Positions 88-61,989 of a stretch of 64,000 nucleotides of DNA are shown in pieces (within the stretch, counting starts at the first letter, position 1; every line of letters starts with the position of its first letter). Location of the stretch: positions 1 to 64,000 of the forward strand of contig JAISPR010000010.1 in assembly GCA_031274765.1 (NCBI GenBank). The letters run 5' to 3'. The notes below the pieces were generated by a model. The model had not been told where the DNA came from. It worked only from the letters and a program-made list of their open reading frames with translations, and searched no databases. This stretch comes from Nitrososphaerota archaeon. Lineage in GTDB: Archaea; Thermoproteota; Bathyarchaeia; Bathyarchaeales; Bathycorpusculaceae. The position numbers and the translations under genes were made by a program.

Positions 88-419
88 TATTTCCATATCT
101 AGGGGAACTATAGTTAATCATGTGGTAGAATTTGCACAAAAGCTGAACCGGTACTAAATGAAATTTCTTTGTAATTACACAAAGTAGAGGTTTTGAATTT
201 TGATGAAACAGGTTAGTGTGAATGTGAAAAAGCATTGGCTACACATGGTATCCAGTGTTCAAGTGATCTATGTTACTGTTCATTCTTAGTGTGGGTGGAG
301 GGGGTTGATGATGTGGGGGTTTGAGGGGGGTTTTTGGGGGTGGTGGTTTGTGATTGTTGGTGGATTTTTTTTAAGTATGGTATTGTTTGCATGTTCTTTA
401 TATGCGTATTTGTTGGGGG

Positions 420-523
420 AGACTGTCTAAAAACTAGATTTTTTGCGTCTTTGGTGTAAACGGACGGAGAAAATCGGTTCGTTTCTTGTTTTTCTGGGAT
501 TTGTGTTAGTTTTTGGACTGTCT
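420..523. repeat. MITE-like family A, copy 1
   Basis: Begins AGACTGTCTAAAAACTAG, ends ...TTAGTTTTTGGACTGTCT (inverted ends); near-identical to 624-726. Confidence 0.85.
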
Positions 524-623
524 GGGGGGAGTTGTAGGTGGTATTGAGAATACGGGGCAGGGGGTTGGTTTTGATGGTTGCGTTTTTGCGTTGGCTTGAG
601 CGGGTGGTGGATCGTCACAGGGG

Positions 624-726
624 AGACTGTCTAAAAACTAGATTTTTTGTGTTTTTGGTGTAAACTGACGGAGAAAATCGGTTCTTTTCTTGTTTTTCTG
701 GGATTTGTGTTAGTTTTTGGACAGTC
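624..726. repeat. MITE-like family A, copy 2
   Basis: Same ~103 bp unit with inverted ends AGACTGTCTAAAAACTAG / TAGTTTTTGGACAGTCT. Confidence 0.85.
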
Positions 727-1064
727 TTAGGGGGTGGGGTGGGGTTGTTGGATTGTACGGTTTTGGGGTTTTGGATGTGTATTTGCGTATTTTGGGGTTG
801 GGTTGGGGGCGAATTTTTTGGTGATTGGGCAGCGTATGTGCTCAGTGGTTAAGTGTTTGTTGGGTGGGTTGTGTTGTATTGGGTGGTTTGTGGTTTAGTG
901 TGGGTTTTTTGGTGTTGTTTGATAATAATTTGGTTGAGCGTGATATTTTGGTTGGTGAGGGTGGTGTAGAAGGTGTTGGGTGGTTTTTGTTTTGTTTTGG
1001 GTGTGTGGATTTTTGGTTGGATTGCTTGTATTGTTGGGGTGGCTATTGTGCTGGGGTGTTTTGT

Positions 1065-1559
1065 TTATGGTGTTATTTTGGGGGTTTTTGTTGGGTTGGT
1101 AACGTCTTTGTTTAGTGGTTCTCCGCACGACTGAATAGTTACAATAATATTAGCCGCCGTACCCTCACTAACCACCCTAAAATTCTCCAACGCATAACAA
1201 ATAGCCGCTACAATCAAAACCACCGCAAACATAGCCAACGCAATAGTCTGCATTAATCCAAACACACGGGTCATTGGTACCCCTAACTGTTGCCCAATAG
1301 TCCCCCCACCACTAGGCGGATCAGCTATCAACGGCAATTCAATAAGGTAAGAATATACGCCGTTGGGACCACCAATTATTATGTCAAACAGTGTAGACAT
1401 GATCGCAGGCGTGGCAAGATAAATAACAAGCATAGTAATAGTGAAAAAAGCTATCAAAATCCCCGCATCAACACCAAGCAACGTCCGCTTAGACTTCAAT
1501 CTACCCATTAATTCCTGAAATTTTTTATAGATACGATCACGCCAGAACGCTAACTTCAA
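1065..1559 (-). pseudogene. Integral membrane protein, probably 3'-truncated
   Basis: Two or more hydrophobic helices (GILIAFFTITMLVIYLATPAI; TIALAMFAVVLIVAAICYALE); the reading frame runs into G/T-rich spacer at about 1130. Confidence 0.5.
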
Positions 1560-2691: not shown

Positions 2692-3010
2692 CATCAAAAT
2701 CCACATCAAAGCCATCCTATAGCAACTTGATTTTACATTAATAGTCAATATATTTCGATTGTACGACCCATTAAAGAACATTAACCAATGTGAAAACAAC
2801 AAACAATAAAACAAAAAAAACACCATCTCAACAATACAACACAAAGAAAAACACCACCAACAACCACAGAACACAACATAAACATAAACACAATGACAAA
2901 ACATCCCAAAACCAAACCACACAAAAACCCCAAAAAACCACCAAACCACCACATACAACAACAAATAAAAGCACACCACCTACAGCATTAAACCCCTATT
3001 CTAACTTTTT

Positions 3011-3070
3011 ACTTACACCCGACAATTTGACCTAAAACAACCAAAAACCAAATCATACTAAAAAACATCC
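3011..3070. repeat. Partial, mutated copy of MITE-like family B inside the IS630-like element
   Basis: ACTTACACCCGACAATTTGACCTAAAACAACCAAAAACCAAATCATACT aligns to the end of the 50626-50786 copy. Confidence 0.65.
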
Positions 3071-3143
3071 AAAACAAGAAAAGAACCGATTTTCTCCGCC
3101 CGTTTACACCAAAAACACAAAAAATCTAGTTTTTAGACAGTCT
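3071..3143. repeat. Partial inverted copy of MITE-like family A, fused to a partial B copy
   Basis: AAAACAAGAAAAGAACCGATTTTCTCCGCCCGTTTACACCAAAAACACAAAAAATCTAGTTTTTAGACAGTCT is the reverse complement of most of family A. Confidence 0.8.
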
Positions 3144-3148
3144 CCCCC

Positions 3149-3245
3149 AAACTACCCAAAAACTAACAAAAATCCCAGAAAAACCAGAAAAACCAATTCC
3201 CCACCCATTACCACCAAAACACAAAAAATCTATTTTTTAAACAAC
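3149..3245. repeat. Degenerate inverted copy of MITE-like family A
   Basis: AAACTACCCAAAAACTAACAAAAATCCCAGAAAAACCAG...ACACAAAAAATCTATTTTTTAAACAACC. Confidence 0.65.
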
Positions 3246-3410
3246 CACCCACCCCAAAAACAAAAAAAAACAAAACCAAAACACACCAACCCAAACATAC
3301 CCCTACAGAACCATAACAACATGAAATCACATTAACCCATAACCATCATGCTTAAACCAACCACAAATATCCCCAAACGTAACCGCCCCAAGCGCCACCC
3401 CAAGCGCCAC

Positions 3411-3800
3411 CTACAACTCCCCCAAAGACCACACCTTAAGCTTACGCAAAAGCGCCTTCAACTTCGACCACAACAACAAAAGAGGATTCAAATCCGACAA
3501 ATAAACAGGCAAAAACCAAACAAACGCCCCACACTCAAAAATAGGATCCAAAACCCCCGCCACCTTATGCGAAGACAAACTATCCAACAACACCACATCC
3601 CCCACCCTCAACGCAGGAGCCAAAACATACTTCACCCAAAGACCAAAAATATCCCCATTCAAAGCCCCCTCAAACGACACTGATGCCTCCACCCCTGACA
3701 ACCGCACGGCTGAGAGAACAGTGATGCGCTCAAAGCGTGCATCAGGCACATAATCCTCCACCCGAGCATTTTTTTCTCCCCACCCATAGAGGCGCGTCAT
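3411..3800 (-). pseudogene. IS630-family transposase, DDE domain fragment
   Basis: GDVVLLDSLSSHKV...FVWFLPVYLSDLNPLLLLWSKLKALLRKLK matches the IS630 DNxxxHK...FLPPYSPDLNPIE pattern with substitutions. Confidence 0.8.
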
Positions 3801-3847
3801 AGCGGTATTGACCCCGCACTCATCGATGAAAACAAGTTGTTCTATTT

Positions 3848-4258
3848 CTAGGGTTTTTTGTATTTCGCGTCATTTGGCGCGTTCTTTGATGACATCGGGT
3901 CGTTTTTGGTCGTTTGCATGGTGAGTCTTTTTTTAAAAGTTAAATCCATTTTTTTAAGATGCCGTGAAAGGCCACTTTCAGTTAAATCTAGGGCTAATTC
4001 ATCTATTAGTTCTAGGAGGGTTATGTCTGGGGTTTGGTGTATTTTGGTTTTTATGTCTTCTTCTTGTTTTTGGGTGAGGGTGTTTTTTCTGCCTTTGTAG
4101 GGTGTGGGTAGGTAGGTTCGGGTTGTTTTGAATTTGTGCCATATTTTATCGATTGTGCTTATGCTTACGTTGAGCCGTTGGGCTATTGTGTGGCGTTTTT
4201 CTTTGCGTTGCATTGCTGAGATGATGTTTTCTCTTGTTTTGTTGTCTGTTGCTCTCAA
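3848..4258 (-). pseudogene. IS630-family transposase, N-terminal HTH fragment
   Basis: HTIAQRLNVSISTIDKIWHKFKTTRTYLPTPYKGRKNTLTQKQEEDIKTKI is IS630-type HTH; out of frame with 3411-3800. Confidence 0.8.
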
Positions 4259-4337
4259 CTATTTAGCCTCTTTAAATAAAGTGTGCAATCGCAATATATA
4301 AACTATTAATGTAAAATCAAGTTGCTATAATAGTAAA

Positions 4338-4501: not shown

Positions 4502-4617
4502 CAGACTGCGCAAAAAGTCAAAACAACATCACTAAACACTACCGACAGCGTATAGCCCTCACCTATTGCTGTATGTAGTGGCTTTGATGAATTTTATTGG
4601 AGTTTTTGCACAGTCTG
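4502..4617. repeat. MITE-like family E, copy 1
   Basis: CAGACTGCGCAAAAA ... TTTTTGCACAGTCTG inverted ends, 116 bp. Confidence 0.8.
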
Positions 4618-4746
4618 AAATACGAAATAATTTCCGAAAAAGACACGAATTTCGAGAATTTAGGAAAATAACTATTAAAAGATGAAAATGGGGGATTAGA
4701 CGATGTGGTTTGTGGTGTGATTGTTTTAGTTTGGGCGATTTGGTTT

Positions 4747-38730: not shown

Positions 38731-38843
38731 ATAGTGTGCAAAGCCAAAAACAATATCTCTAAACATATAGGCAGTGTATATCTCTTTTTTTGTTTTTGTA
38801 TGTTGTGGTTTGGTGAATTTTATTGGAATTTTTGCACAGTCTG
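38731..38843. repeat. MITE-like family E, copy 2
   Basis: ...GGTTTGGTGAATTTTATTGGAATTTTTGCACAGTCTG shared with copy 1; degraded left end. Confidence 0.65.
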
Positions 38844-39057
38844 AATTGTTGCATTTGTTCTCTTGATATAGCTTTTGTTTTTTGGGTCGGGGTTTGTTTT
38901 TTGTAGCCGAAACTGGTTTTGTGTATTATTGACTGTTGTTTTTATGTATCTGGCTAAGTGGCAAGGGCTATAAGTAAAACTCGAGGGTTATCTTTTTAAT
39001 GTACCTTGTGAGTAAAAGAGTAATAAGGGGTATGGATTTAGCGGGGGACAAAGTGAA

Positions 39058-41158: not shown

Positions 41159-41319
41159 ACTTACATTTGGCAGTTTGGGAAAAAAATATTTTGAATTGTT
41201 TATATTACCAGTTGCTGCGTGTTTTTGGTTATGTTTACGATGATTTTCTTATTTTTTTGAATATTTTTTGAGCATGATTTAATTTTTGGCTGTGTTGGGT
41301 CAAACTGCCGAATGTAAGT
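41159..41319. repeat. MITE-like family B, copy 1
   Basis: ACTTACATTTGGCAGTTT ... AAACTGCCGAATGTAAGT; 18-bp TIRs with one mismatch; TA nearby on each side. Confidence 0.88.
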
Positions 41320-44166: not shown

Positions 44167-44201
44167 ATGCAGTAGTAGGGTGTCGATTTATAGGTGACTG
44201 T

Positions 44202-44993
44202 ATGAATCTGTTGCAGGCTATGACTTTGGGTTTAATTCAGGGGACAACGGAGTGGTTGCCCATATCTAGTACTGGGCATTTGCGGTTGGCTGAGAATTTT
44301 TTTGGTTTGCGTTTGCCTTTGCTTTTTGATGTGCTCTTGCATGCGGGAACTTTGTTGGTTACCTTAATTTATTTCCGGGGTGCCATTAAAGCCGTGTTGG
44401 TTTCGTTTTGGCATCGTGATTTTCATTCTGAGGCTGGTCGTCTTGTTTTACCTATAATTGTGGGGTCTATTCCTACTGCGCTTATTGGTGCAGTGGTGGG
44501 TGATTGGTTCGATAGTTATTTTAGCAGTTTGATGTGGCTTGGGGTATGGTTATTTGTTAGTGGGGTTTTGCTTTTGGCAACTAAATTTAGTGTTGAACGT
44601 AGTGCCTCTCTTAGTTTACCTATTGCGGTTTTGGTGGGTGTTATGCAGGGGTTCTCTATTATCCCAAGTGCGTCGCGGAGTGGGTTTACTATATCAACAA
44701 TGCTTCTTTTGGGTATAAAGCGGGAGGTGGCTTTTAAATTTGCTTTTTTGCTCTCTATTCCTGCGGTTATTGGTGCTTTGGGTTTGACTCTCTATAAAGA
44801 GCACGGGGCTTTTATGGTTGCGGGTATTGGTTTATCTGAAGTCGTTGTTGCACTTAGTGTGACTGTTTTTGTGAGTTTTTTGGCGATAAAGTTGCTTGAG
44901 AAGAGTTTGAATGCAAAAAAGTTCTATCTGTTTAGTATTTACTGTTTTACTCTGGGTGCCATTATGATTTTGCTAGATGTTTTGGGGTACTAG
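44202..44993 (+). CDS. uppP: Undecaprenyl/polyprenyl-diphosphatase UppP (BacA)
   Basis: LGLIQGTTEWLPISSTGHLRLAE; GVMQGFSIIPSASRSGFTISTMLLLGIKREVAFKFAFLLSIPAVIGA. Confidence 0.96.
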   Translation: MNLLQAMTLGLIQGTTEWLPISSTGHLRLAENFFGLRLPLLFDVLLHAGTLLVTLIYFRGAIKAVLVSFWHRDFHSEAGRLVLPIIVGSIPTALIGAVVGDWFDSYFSSLMWLGVWLFVSGVLLLATKFSVERSASLSLPIAVLVGVMQGFSIIPSASRSGFTISTMLLLGIKREVAFKFAFLLSIPAVIGALGLTLYKEHGAFMVAGIGLSEVVVALSVTVFVSFLAIKLLEKSLNAKKFYLFSIYCFTLGAIMILLDVLGY

Positions 44994-46397
44994 CCAAGAT
45001 GGTTTACCTATGAGAAATTCTGTAAAGAAAACTGCGAAATCGGGGTTTTCTGTATAAATTTTGATAATTTCGGTATTGGTCATTATTTTAAAGTTTTGTT
45101 TTATGGTTTGTGCAACTAGGTTTGCGGTTCCGGCGTTTTTGCCGCCGTTGTCTGAGAGTTTTTCTTGTAGCAGAGTTGAGGCGGTAGGGTATTTATTTGG
45201 GATCTCTACGTTCCAGCGTCCGTTTTCAATGTAGGGGCCGGTGTGTAGAGTATTTGTGGTTGTATATTTTGTGAGGAATGTGTCGCATTCTGCTTGTTTT
45301 TCTAGTTGTGGGCCTATGTGTTTTTTTGTGTTGGGTAGTTTGTGTTGTTCTAGTTCGAAAATAAAGATGCAAAGGGTTGTTTGGTTACTCCAGATGGTGT
45401 CTCGCAGGACTTTGAATTTGTGGGTTTCTAGTAGGCTGCGTAGGGCGCGTTTGGTGCGGTAGAGTTGGCCCCACAGTATGTCAGGGACGGCTTCTATTGC
45501 GTTGGTGGTTATGTAGAGATAGGTGCTGTTTTGGGGGGTGAGTTTTTTTTTGATGGTTTGGGGGGTGTGTGCGTGGGTGGGGGGTGGGTAGAAAAAGTTT
45601 TGGGTTGGGGCTTTTAGGTATGCTCTGGTGGCGGCGATGAATTCGTAGAGTTTTTGTGGTTGGACTGCGGAAGCGACGTTTCGGGTTTTGTCTACGGGGT
45701 CAATAATTATTAGAGGGTCTGTGAAGAGTTGTTCGATTTCTTTTGTGTGGTTGTAGTGGTTTTCGGGGTCGATTATGATGCGTTTGTTGTAGGCGGCAAA
45801 TGTGTTGATGACTTCTTGGAAGGTGCCATAGTGGAGGACTAAGAGTTCGCAGAGATATCCGCTAAAGCCGCCGATTTTGATTTCTGCGCCATAAACGTTG
45901 ATGCCTTGCATGAATTTTTTGAGGAGACGTATTTCACTTGGGAGTTTTTGGGTTAGGTGTGTGTGGATGTAGTCAGTGTGGTAGGGTGTGCGGTCGGTTG
46001 CGCTTTGCCATTTGCCCGGGGGTGTGTTGTAGCAGGGTACAATGTCTATGCGGTAGTTTTCTACAAAGATTTCTAGGTAGGGGTGTTGCGCGTATCGTTG
46101 GATTTGTTTAGCGTTTCCGGCGGCTTTTTTTGCAATACGTAGGCTTATGTCTTTGAGGTTTTGGAGGGGGATAGTGGTGGGTAGGCGGATAAAGATGTCG
46201 ATGTCGGGGTTTTCGCTTAGCCAGGTGTCTTTGGCGACTGAGCCCTCAACGCGGACAATGGCTTTTATACCCTCGGCTTGGCAGGTGGTTTGGATTTTTT
46301 TTTCTATGGTACGGCTTAGGGTGTTGACTTTTTGACGTTCTTCTGGGGTGGGTGTAATTTTGTTTAGTATTTGTTGGGTTAGGGTGTTTTGGTTCAT
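44973..46397 (-). CDS. cca: Archaeal CCA-adding enzyme (class I)
   Basis: VRVEGSVAKDTWLSENPDIDIFIRLP; IGGFSGYLCELLVLHYGTF; IIDPVDKTRNVASAV. Confidence 0.95.
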   Translation of the reverse strand: MNQNTLTQQILNKITPTPEERQKVNTLSRTIEKKIQTTCQAEGIKAIVRVEGSVAKDTWLSENPDIDIFIRLPTTIPLQNLKDISLRIAKKAAGNAKQIQRYAQHPYLEIFVENYRIDIVPCYNTPPGKWQSATDRTPYHTDYIHTHLTQKLPSEIRLLKKFMQGINVYGAEIKIGGFSGYLCELLVLHYGTFQEVINTFAAYNKRIIIDPENHYNHTKEIEQLFTDPLIIIDPVDKTRNVASAVQPQKLYEFIAATRAYLKAPTQNFFYPPPTHAHTPQTIKKKLTPQNSTYLYITTNAIEAVPDILWGQLYRTKRALRSLLETHKFKVLRDTIWSNQTTLCIFIFELEQHKLPNTKKHIGPQLEKQAECDTFLTKYTTTNTLHTGPYIENGRWNVEIPNKYPTASTLLQEKLSDNGGKNAGTANLVAQTIKQNFKIMTNTEIIKIYTENPDFAVFFTEFLIGKPSWLVPQNI

Positions 46398-46403
46398 TTT
46401 GGT

Positions 46404-46982
46404 TTAGGGGTAGTATTCTTTGAGTGTGCTATAGGTGGGGCCTTTGGGTGAGAGTTGGCTTTTTTTGAGGCGGAGGCAGTTGGCACGTGTGTTGCCAAAG
46501 TCATAGTTTTCTTGGCGTTGTACAAAATCGACGAGACGTTGTTTGTTGGCGCCGGAGCGGACGCGTGCAATGGTTAGGTGTGGGCTAAAGCCGTTGGGGT
46601 CAGGTGCGAAGCCTAAGTCATGTATTTTGGGTTCTAGTTGTTCAAAGATGCTTTTTAGTTGGTCTGCGCCGTCGGTTATGCCTGCCCAAACTATGCGGGG
46701 GTAATTGATTGTGGGAAATACTCCTAAGCCGGATAGTTGGATGTTAAATGGGGTGAATTTGATGGTTTTTATGGAGGTGTAAATTTTTTCTATCATGTCG
46801 GGGTTGATGAGCCCCAGAAAACGGATGGTTATGTGGATGTTTTTTGGTTCTACCATTTTGAGGTCTGCGTTAGTTTGGAGGAGGGATTTTTGGATGCTTG
46901 CAATCCGGTTTGTGATACTATCATTTTCGAGGTCGAAAGCTATGAAGCTTCTAATCTGTTGCTCGGACATACTTATCTTCAC
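46404..46982 (-). CDS. thpR: RNA 2',3'-cyclic phosphodiesterase
   Basis: IRSFIAFDLEND; PKNIHITIRFLG; FSPHLTIARVRS (two HxTx motifs). Confidence 0.95.
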   Translation of the reverse strand: MKISMSEQQIRSFIAFDLENDSITNRIASIQKSLLQTNADLKMVEPKNIHITIRFLGLINPDMIEKIYTSIKTIKFTPFNIQLSGLGVFPTINYPRIVWAGITDGADQLKSIFEQLEPKIHDLGFAPDPNGFSPHLTIARVRSGANKQRLVDFVQRQENYDFGNTRANCLRLKKSQLSPKGPTYSTLKEYYP

Positions 46983-47182
46983 TTTTAAAAATAGATAACC
47001 AAAATAAATGCTTTTAGCGGTATAAGTGTGGGTTGTTTGTTGTTTTTGGGTTTTTGGGGTGTTTGGGTTTGGTGTTTTGTGTGGGGGTGGGGGCGGGTTG
47101 TTGGGTTTGGGTTTGGGTGTTTGTTTGTAATAATCTTTAAATTAAATTAAATGATATTTTATTTACGTGACGTGTTGATACT

Positions 47183-47662
47183 ATGGTATATACCACACTC
47201 GCATCACCCCTAACCCAAAAACAAAAGCTTGTCTGGTTCCTACTAAACAAAGGCCACACCGCTGCTACCATTGCTGCCAAACTAAACACAACCCGCCAAT
47301 TTGTCAACCAAACCAAACTATCCGCCGAAGCCAAACTATCAACCACCTTGATAGACGTAGCACAAGCAAACGATCTCCAAATTACCAAACTCTACCCCAA
47401 AATTGGTGTCCTTATAGCATACCACCCTGCTCTAAAACGTAAAGCTATTCTCACTTATAGCACTAACTATGGTATAAAAGTCTGGTATTGGCACGACAAC
47501 CCTGAAGAAGTCACTGATCCCACTTTTCTAAATCAAGTCCGCCAATATTTAATCGATATTGCTATTGAAAGAAACCTAAACATTGAGAACACCAACAAAA
47601 TTCACCCCTCCAAATTAGCCCACCAAATCTTTTCAAAACTTATTCCTGAGTTCAATATATAA
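47183..47662 (+). CDS. HTH-containing protein
   Basis: LTQKQKLVWFLLNKGHTAATIAAKLNTTRQFVNQTKLSAEAKL resembles a sigma/Tfx-type HTH; unassigned C-terminal domain. Confidence 0.65.
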   Translation: MVYTTLASPLTQKQKLVWFLLNKGHTAATIAAKLNTTRQFVNQTKLSAEAKLSTTLIDVAQANDLQITKLYPKIGVLIAYHPALKRKAILTYSTNYGIKVWYWHDNPEEVTDPTFLNQVRQYLIDIAIERNLNIENTNKIHPSKLAHQIFSKLIPEFNI

Positions 47663-47840: not shown

Positions 47841-48155
47841 CCATAGTGTTAAGTATGCGATTTATTTTCTTCAAAAGATGGTTGTCAGAAGAGATAAACT
47901 ATTGAGAGTTTTCACCTAGATAGGTTTGCAAGTTTTGCCTCGTTAGGTTGCAAGAGAGGGGTGAAAAGTATGGAAAAATTGAAAGTTGATGGCCAAAAAC
48001 GTTGACGTAAGCTGGGTAAAACTACAAAAAATGGCGTTATCTAGCTATACGTGAAAACTCAAATTATTCTGGTTGTAACAGTTAAGCTCAGGTATGGTTT
48101 TAATGTTTTCCAGAAATCAGATAATGTTCTAATTTAGAGTGGCTGTTTGATGGGG

Positions 48156-48260
48156 AGGCTGTCCGAAAACTATGATTTTTTGTGTTTTTGGTGTAAACGG
48201 ATGGGGAAAAATGGTTCTTTTTTTGTTTTTCTGGGATTTTTGCTAGTTTTTGGACAGTTT
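48156..48260. repeat. MITE-like family A, degenerate copy
   Basis: AGGCTGTCCGAAAACTATGATTTTTTGTGTTTTTGGTGTAAACGGATGGGG...CTAGTTTTTGGACAGTTT. Confidence 0.8.
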
Positions 48261-50625: not shown

Positions 50626-50786
50626 ACTTACCTTCGGCAGTTTGACCCAACACAGCCAAAAATTAAATCATGCTCAAAAAATATTCGAAAAAATAAGAAA
50701 ATTATTATAAAAATAACCAAAAACTCGCAACAACCTGTACTATAAGTAGTTCAAAGTATTTTTTTCCCAAACTGCCGAACGTGAGT
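50626..50786. repeat. MITE-like family B, copy 3 (inverted)
   Basis: ACTTACCTTCGGCAGTTTGACCCAACACAGCC ... CCCAAACTGCCGAACGTGAGT. Confidence 0.85.
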
Positions 50787-54022: not shown

Positions 54023-54348
54023 AATTAATCATCTTTTTTATTTGGGTATGTTTTTATTTGTCCCAAATTGCATAGTACGCACACTATAACGATCTTGCCC
54101 TTATATTAGTCTTAAACCTGTTTTAGTCACGCTGATTGGATGAAAATTTTTTCAACATAGAGCCTCCAAGAAACCCTATCAAAAACCCCCACTCAAACAC
54201 TAAAAATGACCCAAATACTCAACTGGACATAATGCAAAACAAACGATTTACACATAAATTTAACCTTCTTGGTTGTCCGAAAAAATGGTGAACTTTTGGT
54301 CATGTTGTTAAATAATTTATAAACAACATCTCATATGTTATCTTCTTA

Positions 54349-55056
54349 ATGGCGATAACTGTGGTGAAGGTAACAACAAAATGTATACACTGCAATGCGG
54401 AAATGTGGTAAAAATGGGCAAACAATCAAATGGTGCCCCACGATGCAAATGCAACACTACAAAAAACATTCCAAACAAAATACGCAAATAAAGGCGTACT
54501 GCCTCAAACCAAACTCTTGATAGTAAAAATGGCCACTAACGGCAGTGGCATACGAGACACCGCACGCGTCTTAGATATTAGTTCAAATACCGTTCTAAAA
54601 GTTTTAAAAAAACAAAAATCACCAAACAAACACAAATCTCAAATACACCAACCGCACCATACCGTTCACCATACGTCTAGAAATGGATGAATGTGGCGTA
54701 GAGTGTATTGTAAAAAACACCTTGTTGGTTGTGGCTTGTCATAGTTCATGATACGGGTGATATTGTGGCGTGTGTTTTTGGGATGCGTAGTAGTGAAGTG
54801 TTAGAAGAGTTTTGGGTTTTGTTAAATGGGTTGGATTTGAATATTTGGGTGTATTTTTTGATGATGATTTTGTTTAGCGTGAAGTTATACTGTGGATATT
54901 TTGTGTGCTGGTAAGTGGAATATGCAGCGTATTTGGCGTAAGCGTTTGATTTTTTGTGTGAGGTTGTAGTGTTTGGTTTGTATGTCTATTTGTTTTTCTA
55001 AGTTTTGGGTTGTGTATTTTGTTGTTTTTGGTTTGGTTATAAATGTGTTGGAATTT
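54349..55056 (+). pseudogene. Decayed IS1-like transposase (insA/insB region), copy 1
   Basis: Zinc-ribbon CIHCNAE, then FQTKYANKGVLPQTKLLIVKMATNGSGIRDTARVLDISSNTVLKVLKKQ, then FGMRSSEVLEEFWVLLNGLDLNIWVYF in other frames. Confidence 0.75.
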
Positions 55057-55106
55057 GAGGATAAATTGATTTGAAACATGACTGAACTTTTGAAAAACAA
55101 GTAAAG

Positions 55107-60964: not shown

Positions 60965-61148
60965 TCAAAGAGCAATCTAATCTCCCTTCTTTTTGTTTTT
61001 TAACCCATGATTTTTATGTCAGCTTTTTGTCGTGTAATTTTTTGTTGGTTGTTTCGTTGTGATGTTTCTGTTATTTGTTAGTTTATCTTCCAATTTTTGA
61101 TTATGTTTCTAACTAGTTTATAAACAGTATCTAATATGCTAATTCTTA

Positions 61149-61640
61149 ATGGCGATAACTGTGGTAAAGGTAACAATAAAGTGTATATGTTGCAATAGTG
61201 TGAATGTAGTAAAAATGAGTAAACAACCAAACAACACCCACGATGCTATGCAATAACTGCAAAAAACTTTTCAAATCCAATATACAAATAAAGGCGTACT
61301 GCCTCAAACCAAACAACAATAGTAAAAATGTCCACAAATGGAAATGGCATACGAGACATCTCACACGTTTTAGGTATTAGTCAAAACACTGTCATAAAAG
61401 TTTTAAAAAAACAAAAAATTACCAACAAATATAAACTCCAAATACATAAACCTCGCCAAACCGCTTACCATACGTTTGAGAATGGCTGAAATGTGGGGCA
61501 GAGTGTATTGTAAAAAACACCTTGTTGGTTGGGGCATACCATAGTTCATGATACGGGTGATATTGGGATATGTTTTTGGGACGTGCAGTAGTGAAGTGTT
61601 AAAAGAGTTTGGGTTTTGTTGGGGGTTTGGTGGGTGTGGC
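61149..61640 (+). pseudogene. Decayed IS1-like transposase, copy 2
   Basis: ATGGCGATAACTGTGGTAAAGGTAACAATAAAGTGTATATG...AAATAAAGGCGTACTGCCTCAAACCAAA...AAAAAACACCTTGTTGGTTG is strongly similar to 54349 onward. Confidence 0.75.
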
Positions 61641-61844: not shown

Positions 61845-61963
61845 AAACTGCGCAAAACTCCAATAAAATTCACCAAAACAACTGCATACAGCAATAGATG
61901 AAAGGATATATGTGCTATCTGTAGTGTTTAACACTATTGTTTTTTGACTTTTTGCACAGTCTG
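61845..61963. repeat. MITE-like family E, copy 4 (inverted)
   Basis: AAACTGCGCAAAACTCCAATAAAATTCACCAAAACAACTGCATACAGCAATAG ... GACTTTTTGCACAGTCTG, reverse complement of the 4502 copy. Confidence 0.78.
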
Positions 61964-61989
61964 AATTTCGGTTCGTTTGTAGTTTAGGG

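Follow-up and report, generated by a model that had tools for sequence, protein, structure and literature searches.

Probable local strand-coordinated transition hypermutation behind a mosaic of GT-rich and AC-rich patches in a Candidatus Bathycorpusculum genome

The stretch of DNA analyzed here (the window; 64,000 nucleotides) corresponds to contig C102 in a MAG of Candidatus Bathycorpusculum (Bathyarchaeia; 2.50 Mb in 170 contigs, 95.6% complete), whose ThrRS shows 88% identity to that of Candidatus Bathycorpusculum termitum, with other termite-gut Bathyarchaeia being almost as near. Among its features (Table 1) is a decayed IS630-like element, recognized by 47-bp terminal inverted repeats (91% complementary) and a DDE_3 domain in the open reading frame at positions 3411 to 3800. 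The element encloses three MITE pieces, namely, a relic of family B, a younger copy of family A, and an older family A relic. Composition is given below as K (G+T) or M (A+C) on the strand read; K-ward changes are A>G and C>T, and M-ward changes are G>A and T>C.

The first-pass annotation had placed a family B copy at 3011 to 3070; the relic is real, and its start lies at 3012. Across its first 60 positions, comparison with the 49-copy consensus yielded the six T>C and four G>A changes counted earlier and no C>T or A>G, the single C>T of the earlier count being seen only against individual copies. Five transversions were also found, mostly past a one-base slip near the end. The two reference copies of family B used in that count do match in reverse complement (89% complementary). 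The same tendency had been noted for a family A copy at 3149 to 3245, and the copy as delimited here shares it, with six C>T, four A>G, no G>A, no T>C, and six transversions in the orientation of the family (i.e., six G>A and four T>C on the + strand, with no reverse changes). In the younger A copy, just 2 changes of this type occur, with no reverse ones, versus 10 in each adjoining relic. The summed ratio of M-ward to K-ward changes in the two relics (20:0) exceeds chance, yet it is not special to this locus, because the enclosing patch is among the most AC-rich sampled and direction is overdispersed over all copies of both families.

Table 1. Features of the window discussed in the text
Feature	Position	Strand	Basis or remark
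GT-rich (K) patch on + strand	255..1120	.	G+T 0.81; family A copies 418-524, 622-727
Decayed IS630-like element around three MITE pieces	2718..4329	-	Terminal inverted repeats + DDE_3
AC-rich (M) patch on + strand	2763..3835	.	G+T 0.22
Truncated MITE family B relic, hypermutated toward A + C on + strand	3012..3071	+	Consensus comparison
Younger truncated MITE family A copy, few changes	3066..3145	-	Consensus comparison
Older MITE family A copy, hypermutated, same strand direction	3151..3244	-	Consensus comparison
Reference MITE family B copy	41159..41319	-	
3-kb GT-rich patch over UppP/BacA (+), CCA-adding enzyme (-), LigT-like (-)	44172..47187	.	
Reference MITE family B copy	50626..50786	+	
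IS1-like element copy; InsA HTH 54430-54690	54298..55089	+	35 K-ward : 7 M-ward vs other copies
Truncated IS1-like copy	61103..61613	+	Private transitions K-ward 13, M-ward 4

Iterated nhmmer searches of 0.9 Mb of the same genome collected 91 copies of family A and 49 of family B. Both families are MITEs in being short, noncoding, bounded by terminal inverted repeats, and present in many copies; family B has target-site duplications of ~6 bp, and the ends of family A are inverted repeats lying between G runs. The direction of change per copy is overdispersed in each family, with 0 of 2,000 column-preserving permutations reaching the observed value. A rare-variant filter is powerless on the MITEs, since the changes recur.

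The GT-rich strand of family A nearly always matches the GT-rich flank, and 82 of the 91 copies have a flank K of >0.53. The copies at 418 to 524, 622 to 727, and 48154 to 48260 were inserted the same way, between G runs; a fixed orientation of this kind is unusual for an element whose ends are inverted repeats. MITE insertion was rejected as the source of the skew, as the least diverged A copies already lie in GT-rich flanks and long patches are found without A copies. On the same grounds, it is more likely that family A targets the G runs of GT-rich patches. A further dispersed repeat (common sequence, TTTTTGCACAGTCTGAA) occurs at 4567 to 4624, 38793 to 38850, and 61913 to 61970.

In 250-bp windows over 840 kb of the genome, the K fraction ranges from 0.06 to 0.92, with a standard deviation (SD) of 0.107 versus a binomial value of 0.032 (approximately three times chance); the SD of the purine fraction is 0.046. 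The autocorrelation of K composition is gone by ~1 kb. A three-state HMM assigned 15% of the sample to K patches and 16% to M patches, which have a median length of ~0.3 kb and a maximum of 3 kb. The logarithms of A/G and C/T are correlated over 500-bp windows (r = 0.63), and both transition axes shift jointly; the pairing of G>A with T>C on one strand (C>T with A>G on its complement), first noticed in the relics, is real. The accompanying idea that a repeat copy had been edited is not supported. The mosaic is not restricted to duplicated DNA: single-copy noncoding DNA is affected (SD of the K skew, 0.154, versus 0.179 for noncoding repeats), as are the 4-fold silent sites of single genes (K, 0.06 to 0.91 among 361 genes). 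Simple-sequence slippage was also rejected, since shuffled versions compress at least as well as the extreme patches. A decayed group II intron reverse transcriptase (RT)-like sequence, identified by eye at C101:152-1066 and C72:76032-76944, has a K of ~0.85 on its GT-rich strand.

The independence of direction among copies is clearest in the IS1-like elements, which were scored against a leave-one-out consensus (given as K-ward:M-ward:transversion). Some copies are strongly K-ward (L281, 40:0:2; L282, 38:2:10) and others are strongly M-ward (L286, 1:37:10; L287, 7:54:8; L289, 4:69:16). The A/G and C/T axes agree in these strongly biased copies, an agreement not forced by orienting. Private (terminal) changes alone have K:M ratios of 9:0, 9:1, and 13:4 in some copies versus 0:15, 0:14, 1:10, and 2:7 in others. 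Their direction is heterogeneous (chi2 = 65.7, 12 df, p = 2e-9), exceeding all 20,000 permutations (maximum, 35), and the GC-gain control on the same private sites was not significant (p = 0.49). Private changes of both signs show that direction arose separately in several copies. An older copy (L291) is mixed (13:9 private), as predicted by random-strand events with signs drawn anew. Among 81 independent, nonoverlapping repeat pairs, the K direction is likewise overdispersed (chi2/df = 4.79, p~1e-41), with a flat GC-direction control (1.14); the 17 usable pairs from the outgroup G036 (460 kb) gave a nonsignificant K overdispersion of 1.44 (p = 0.11). In one pair of RT relics, the direction flips near 450 to 500 bp, from 30:3 to, reversed, about 26:3. 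As suspected in the first-pass annotation, then, the biased one-strand spectrum is not neutral symmetric decay. The private changes in both directions and the GC-direction control also rule out the possibility that an older, divergent subfamily accounts for the relics.

The rates per site, oriented by copy, are 0.159 for C>T, 0.069 for A>G (per A), 0.025 for G>A, 0.0135 for T>C (per T), and up to ~0.012 for the rest; as copies were oriented by their majority sign, part of the surplus relative to the reverse classes is built in, and the permutation tests are unaffected by this. Adenines are thus mutated in addition to cytosines. Equal hydrolytic deamination of the two bases would be unexpected, adenine reacting far more slowly. 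The changed sites carry no APOBEC, AID, or pol-eta motif: C>T has no preference for TC (0.157 versus 0.159 in non-TC contexts), WRC is no hotter than SYC (0.174 versus 0.192), and A>G is not favored in WA. Patch composition shows only mild neighbor effects.

The explanation that we consider probable is a recurrent, genome-wide, local strand-coordinated transition hypermutation, in tracts that are probably single-stranded DNA (ssDNA) intermediates of repair or recombination. Now and then, C>T and A>G would accumulate together on a single strand over a tract measuring from a few hundred bases to ~1 kb, giving G>A and T>C on the + strand when the bottom strand is affected. The choice of strand would apparently be random from tract to tract, and the mosaic of GT-rich and AC-rich patches would be the product of such tracts overlapping as the lineage evolved. 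This random-strand tract model is well supported. Simulated tracts with a mean length of 0.5 kb, each changing 10 to 20% of A/C sites, gave SDs of 0.107 to 0.152 and autocorrelations near those observed, and the few transversions beside unidirectional transitions in the IS1-like copies fit the model. Such ssDNA may arise as gaps are repaired, through one-sided resection, or in the course of synthesis coupled to recombination, and its exposed C and A bases may undergo miscopying or deamination until the strand is paired again. Counting against this explanation are the presence of UDG and NucS/EndoMS and the balance of junctions between HMM patches (111 K-then-M versus 107 M-then-K), without the K-then-M excess expected from bidirectional resection. 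The first-pass annotation had also raised an asymmetric replication or repair bias, and a process of this type does fit better, with the sign belonging to the sub-kilobase tract and not to the fork. The chances appear about even that this is an undescribed, motif-free, strand-coordinated hypermutation of C and A that acts in short tracts over the whole chromosome, often enough to dominate silent-site evolution. If so, a specific machine is left to find, which could be a gap-filling polymerase prone to wobble pairing or a route by which both bases are damaged.

A tentative alternative, less probable than the general tract model, is error-prone copying in which a low-fidelity gap-filling polymerase tolerates G.T wobble, placing G opposite T and T opposite G, such that the new strand of the tract gains G and T. 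A single mispair type would then yield both transitions on the same strand, spare transversions, and leave no deaminase motif, in line with the correlated A:G and C:T components of this genome, and a Y-family polymerase is encoded in 24 of 25 congeners. However, species that do not have the mosaic encode this polymerase just as often, the per-site rate of C>T is 2.3 times that of A>G, and a change of several per cent per tract is very high for a single pass. NucS/EndoMS, which is reported to act on G.T-type mismatches, is also present. It is possible, too, that a slow, locus-persistent local bias takes the place of discrete tracts, as the direction of MITE changes tracks the composition of the flanks (rho = 0.44 for family A and 0.34 for family B).

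A dedicated DNA-editing deaminase acting against mobile DNA, as in a RIP- or APOBEC-like defense, appears quite unlikely. Pure transitions on one strand over whole element copies, and the slightly stronger skew of noncoding repeats relative to single-copy noncoding DNA, would agree with such an enzyme. Yet two different bases are changed, without TC, WRC, or WA preference, genes and single-copy DNA are changed too, and a search of this genome for PF00383 returned a single match, which is ComEB/dCMP deaminase-like. The deaminase idea raised in the first-pass annotation is only partly borne out: the paired spectrum is supported, and a motif-specific enzyme or the editing of single copies is not.

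Transcription-coupled asymmetry, in which transcription direction would set the sign of a patch, is very unlikely. In its favor, silent-site G+T climbs along genes, from 0.40 at gene starts to ~0.51 past 1 kb, operon-internal genes included, and the sense strands of coding patches are more often AC-rich. The sign of the mosaic nevertheless does not follow the transcribed strand beyond this weak 5' gradient. In the 3-kb GT-rich patch of the window, the + strand K at 4-fold sites is 0.83 in the UppP gene (+), 0.87 in the CCA-adding enzyme gene (-), and 0.87 in the LigT-like gene (-), i.e., the same strand bias spans genes of both orientations. The + strand silent bias of opposite-strand neighbor genes is positively correlated (r = 0.34, n = 75, p = 0.003; same-strand neighbors, r = 0.54), and intergenic bias is nearly independent of the orientation of the flanking genes. 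On these results, gene orientation was rejected as the main cause. Furthermore, the silent-site bias of one gene reverses sign between congeners: the silent K of ThrRS varies from 0.22 to 0.88 among 25 congeners, and that of the CCA-adding enzyme is 0.13 here versus 0.33 to 0.69 in the 21 other genomes measured. Ordinary leading/lagging replication bias, shuffled by many small inversions, is scarcely credible, for although bacterial leading strands are often GT-rich (PMC3174206), most sampled contig means are 0.46 to 0.53, patches flip within 1 to 3 kb, the private changes of young copies already differ in sign, and archaea showed reduced strand-specific skew in a survey (PMC12999951).

The mosaic is lineage-restricted within the sampled Bathyarchaeia. 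The genomes with the highest K component are G000, G010, G008, G002, G020, G021, G012, and G015, with most congeners sampled at ~20 kb only; bathyarchaeal loci outside the genus mostly have a low one. Among candidate genetic causes, loss of NucS/EndoMS or UDG was rejected, as this genome has both genes (and the Y-family polymerase). A group II intron RT was rejected owing to its patchy distribution. This genome and several termite-gut congeners lack an intact copy of endonuclease V (EndoV), and remnants with in-frame stops occur in G012 (contig C26) and G022. G009, G007, G011, and G019 have an intact EndoV and moderate skew, with ThrRS silent K down to 0.22 to 0.33. A search of 40 relatives showed the gene to be absent or disrupted in each of the 8 most skewed genomes and also in several weakly skewed ones, such that its absence does not cleanly split skewed from unskewed species (p = 0.16). 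EndoV loss was therefore rejected as the cause, several unskewed genomes also being without an intact gene; it may worsen the A>G half of the spectrum in the most affected species.

For this lineage, tracts of this kind would bias phylogenies, codon usage, and the composition of proteins and would mislead the search for origins by skew; they would also offer a natural system for reading ssDNA tract formation from sequence. In the open-access literature, prokaryotes included, we found no described system that explains the mosaic, and each of the nearest known systems shares only part of it. RIP in fungi also heavily alters transposon copies by transitions; it targets repeats and causes only C>T, whereas A>G and single-copy genes are involved here (PMC7296669). 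Diversity-generating retroelements are adenine specific, unlike the changes of both C and A described above. They also involve an RT with template and variable repeats, and RT genes turned up in 9 of the 25 congeners, with none in the strongly skewed G010 and G020 (incomplete genomes). Kataegis consists of strand-coordinated clusters on resected or BIR-derived ssDNA and resembles the present case in its kilobase-scale clusters with changes on one strand, including C>T, but it affects only C within the APOBEC TC motif, whereas here A is also changed and no motif is seen (PMC6786661). The excess of single-switch polarity typical of bidirectional resection is likewise lacking here. Prokaryotic GC and AT skews from replication and transcription similarly leave a strand bias in noncoding DNA and silent sites, but they are oriented by chromosome arm or by gene, whereas the much stronger mosaic changes sign over distances from below 1 kb to the kilobase range (PMC3269012, PMC12999951). 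The mitochondrial heavy strand undergoes C>T and A>G together, and both systems thus have the two transitions on one strand, with a direction independent of the transcribed strand (PMC4371858). In mitochondria, however, replication fixes the strand over nearly the whole molecule; here, in a multi-megabase genome, it is not fixed over the replicon and switches every few hundred bases and between copies, with sign flips within 1 to 3 kb. Strand-coordinated clusters are already known from tumors, yeast, and mitochondria. Archaea have been portrayed as weak in strand-specific mutation (PMC12999951), and an archaeal chromosome remodeled by tracts of this kind would depart from that picture.
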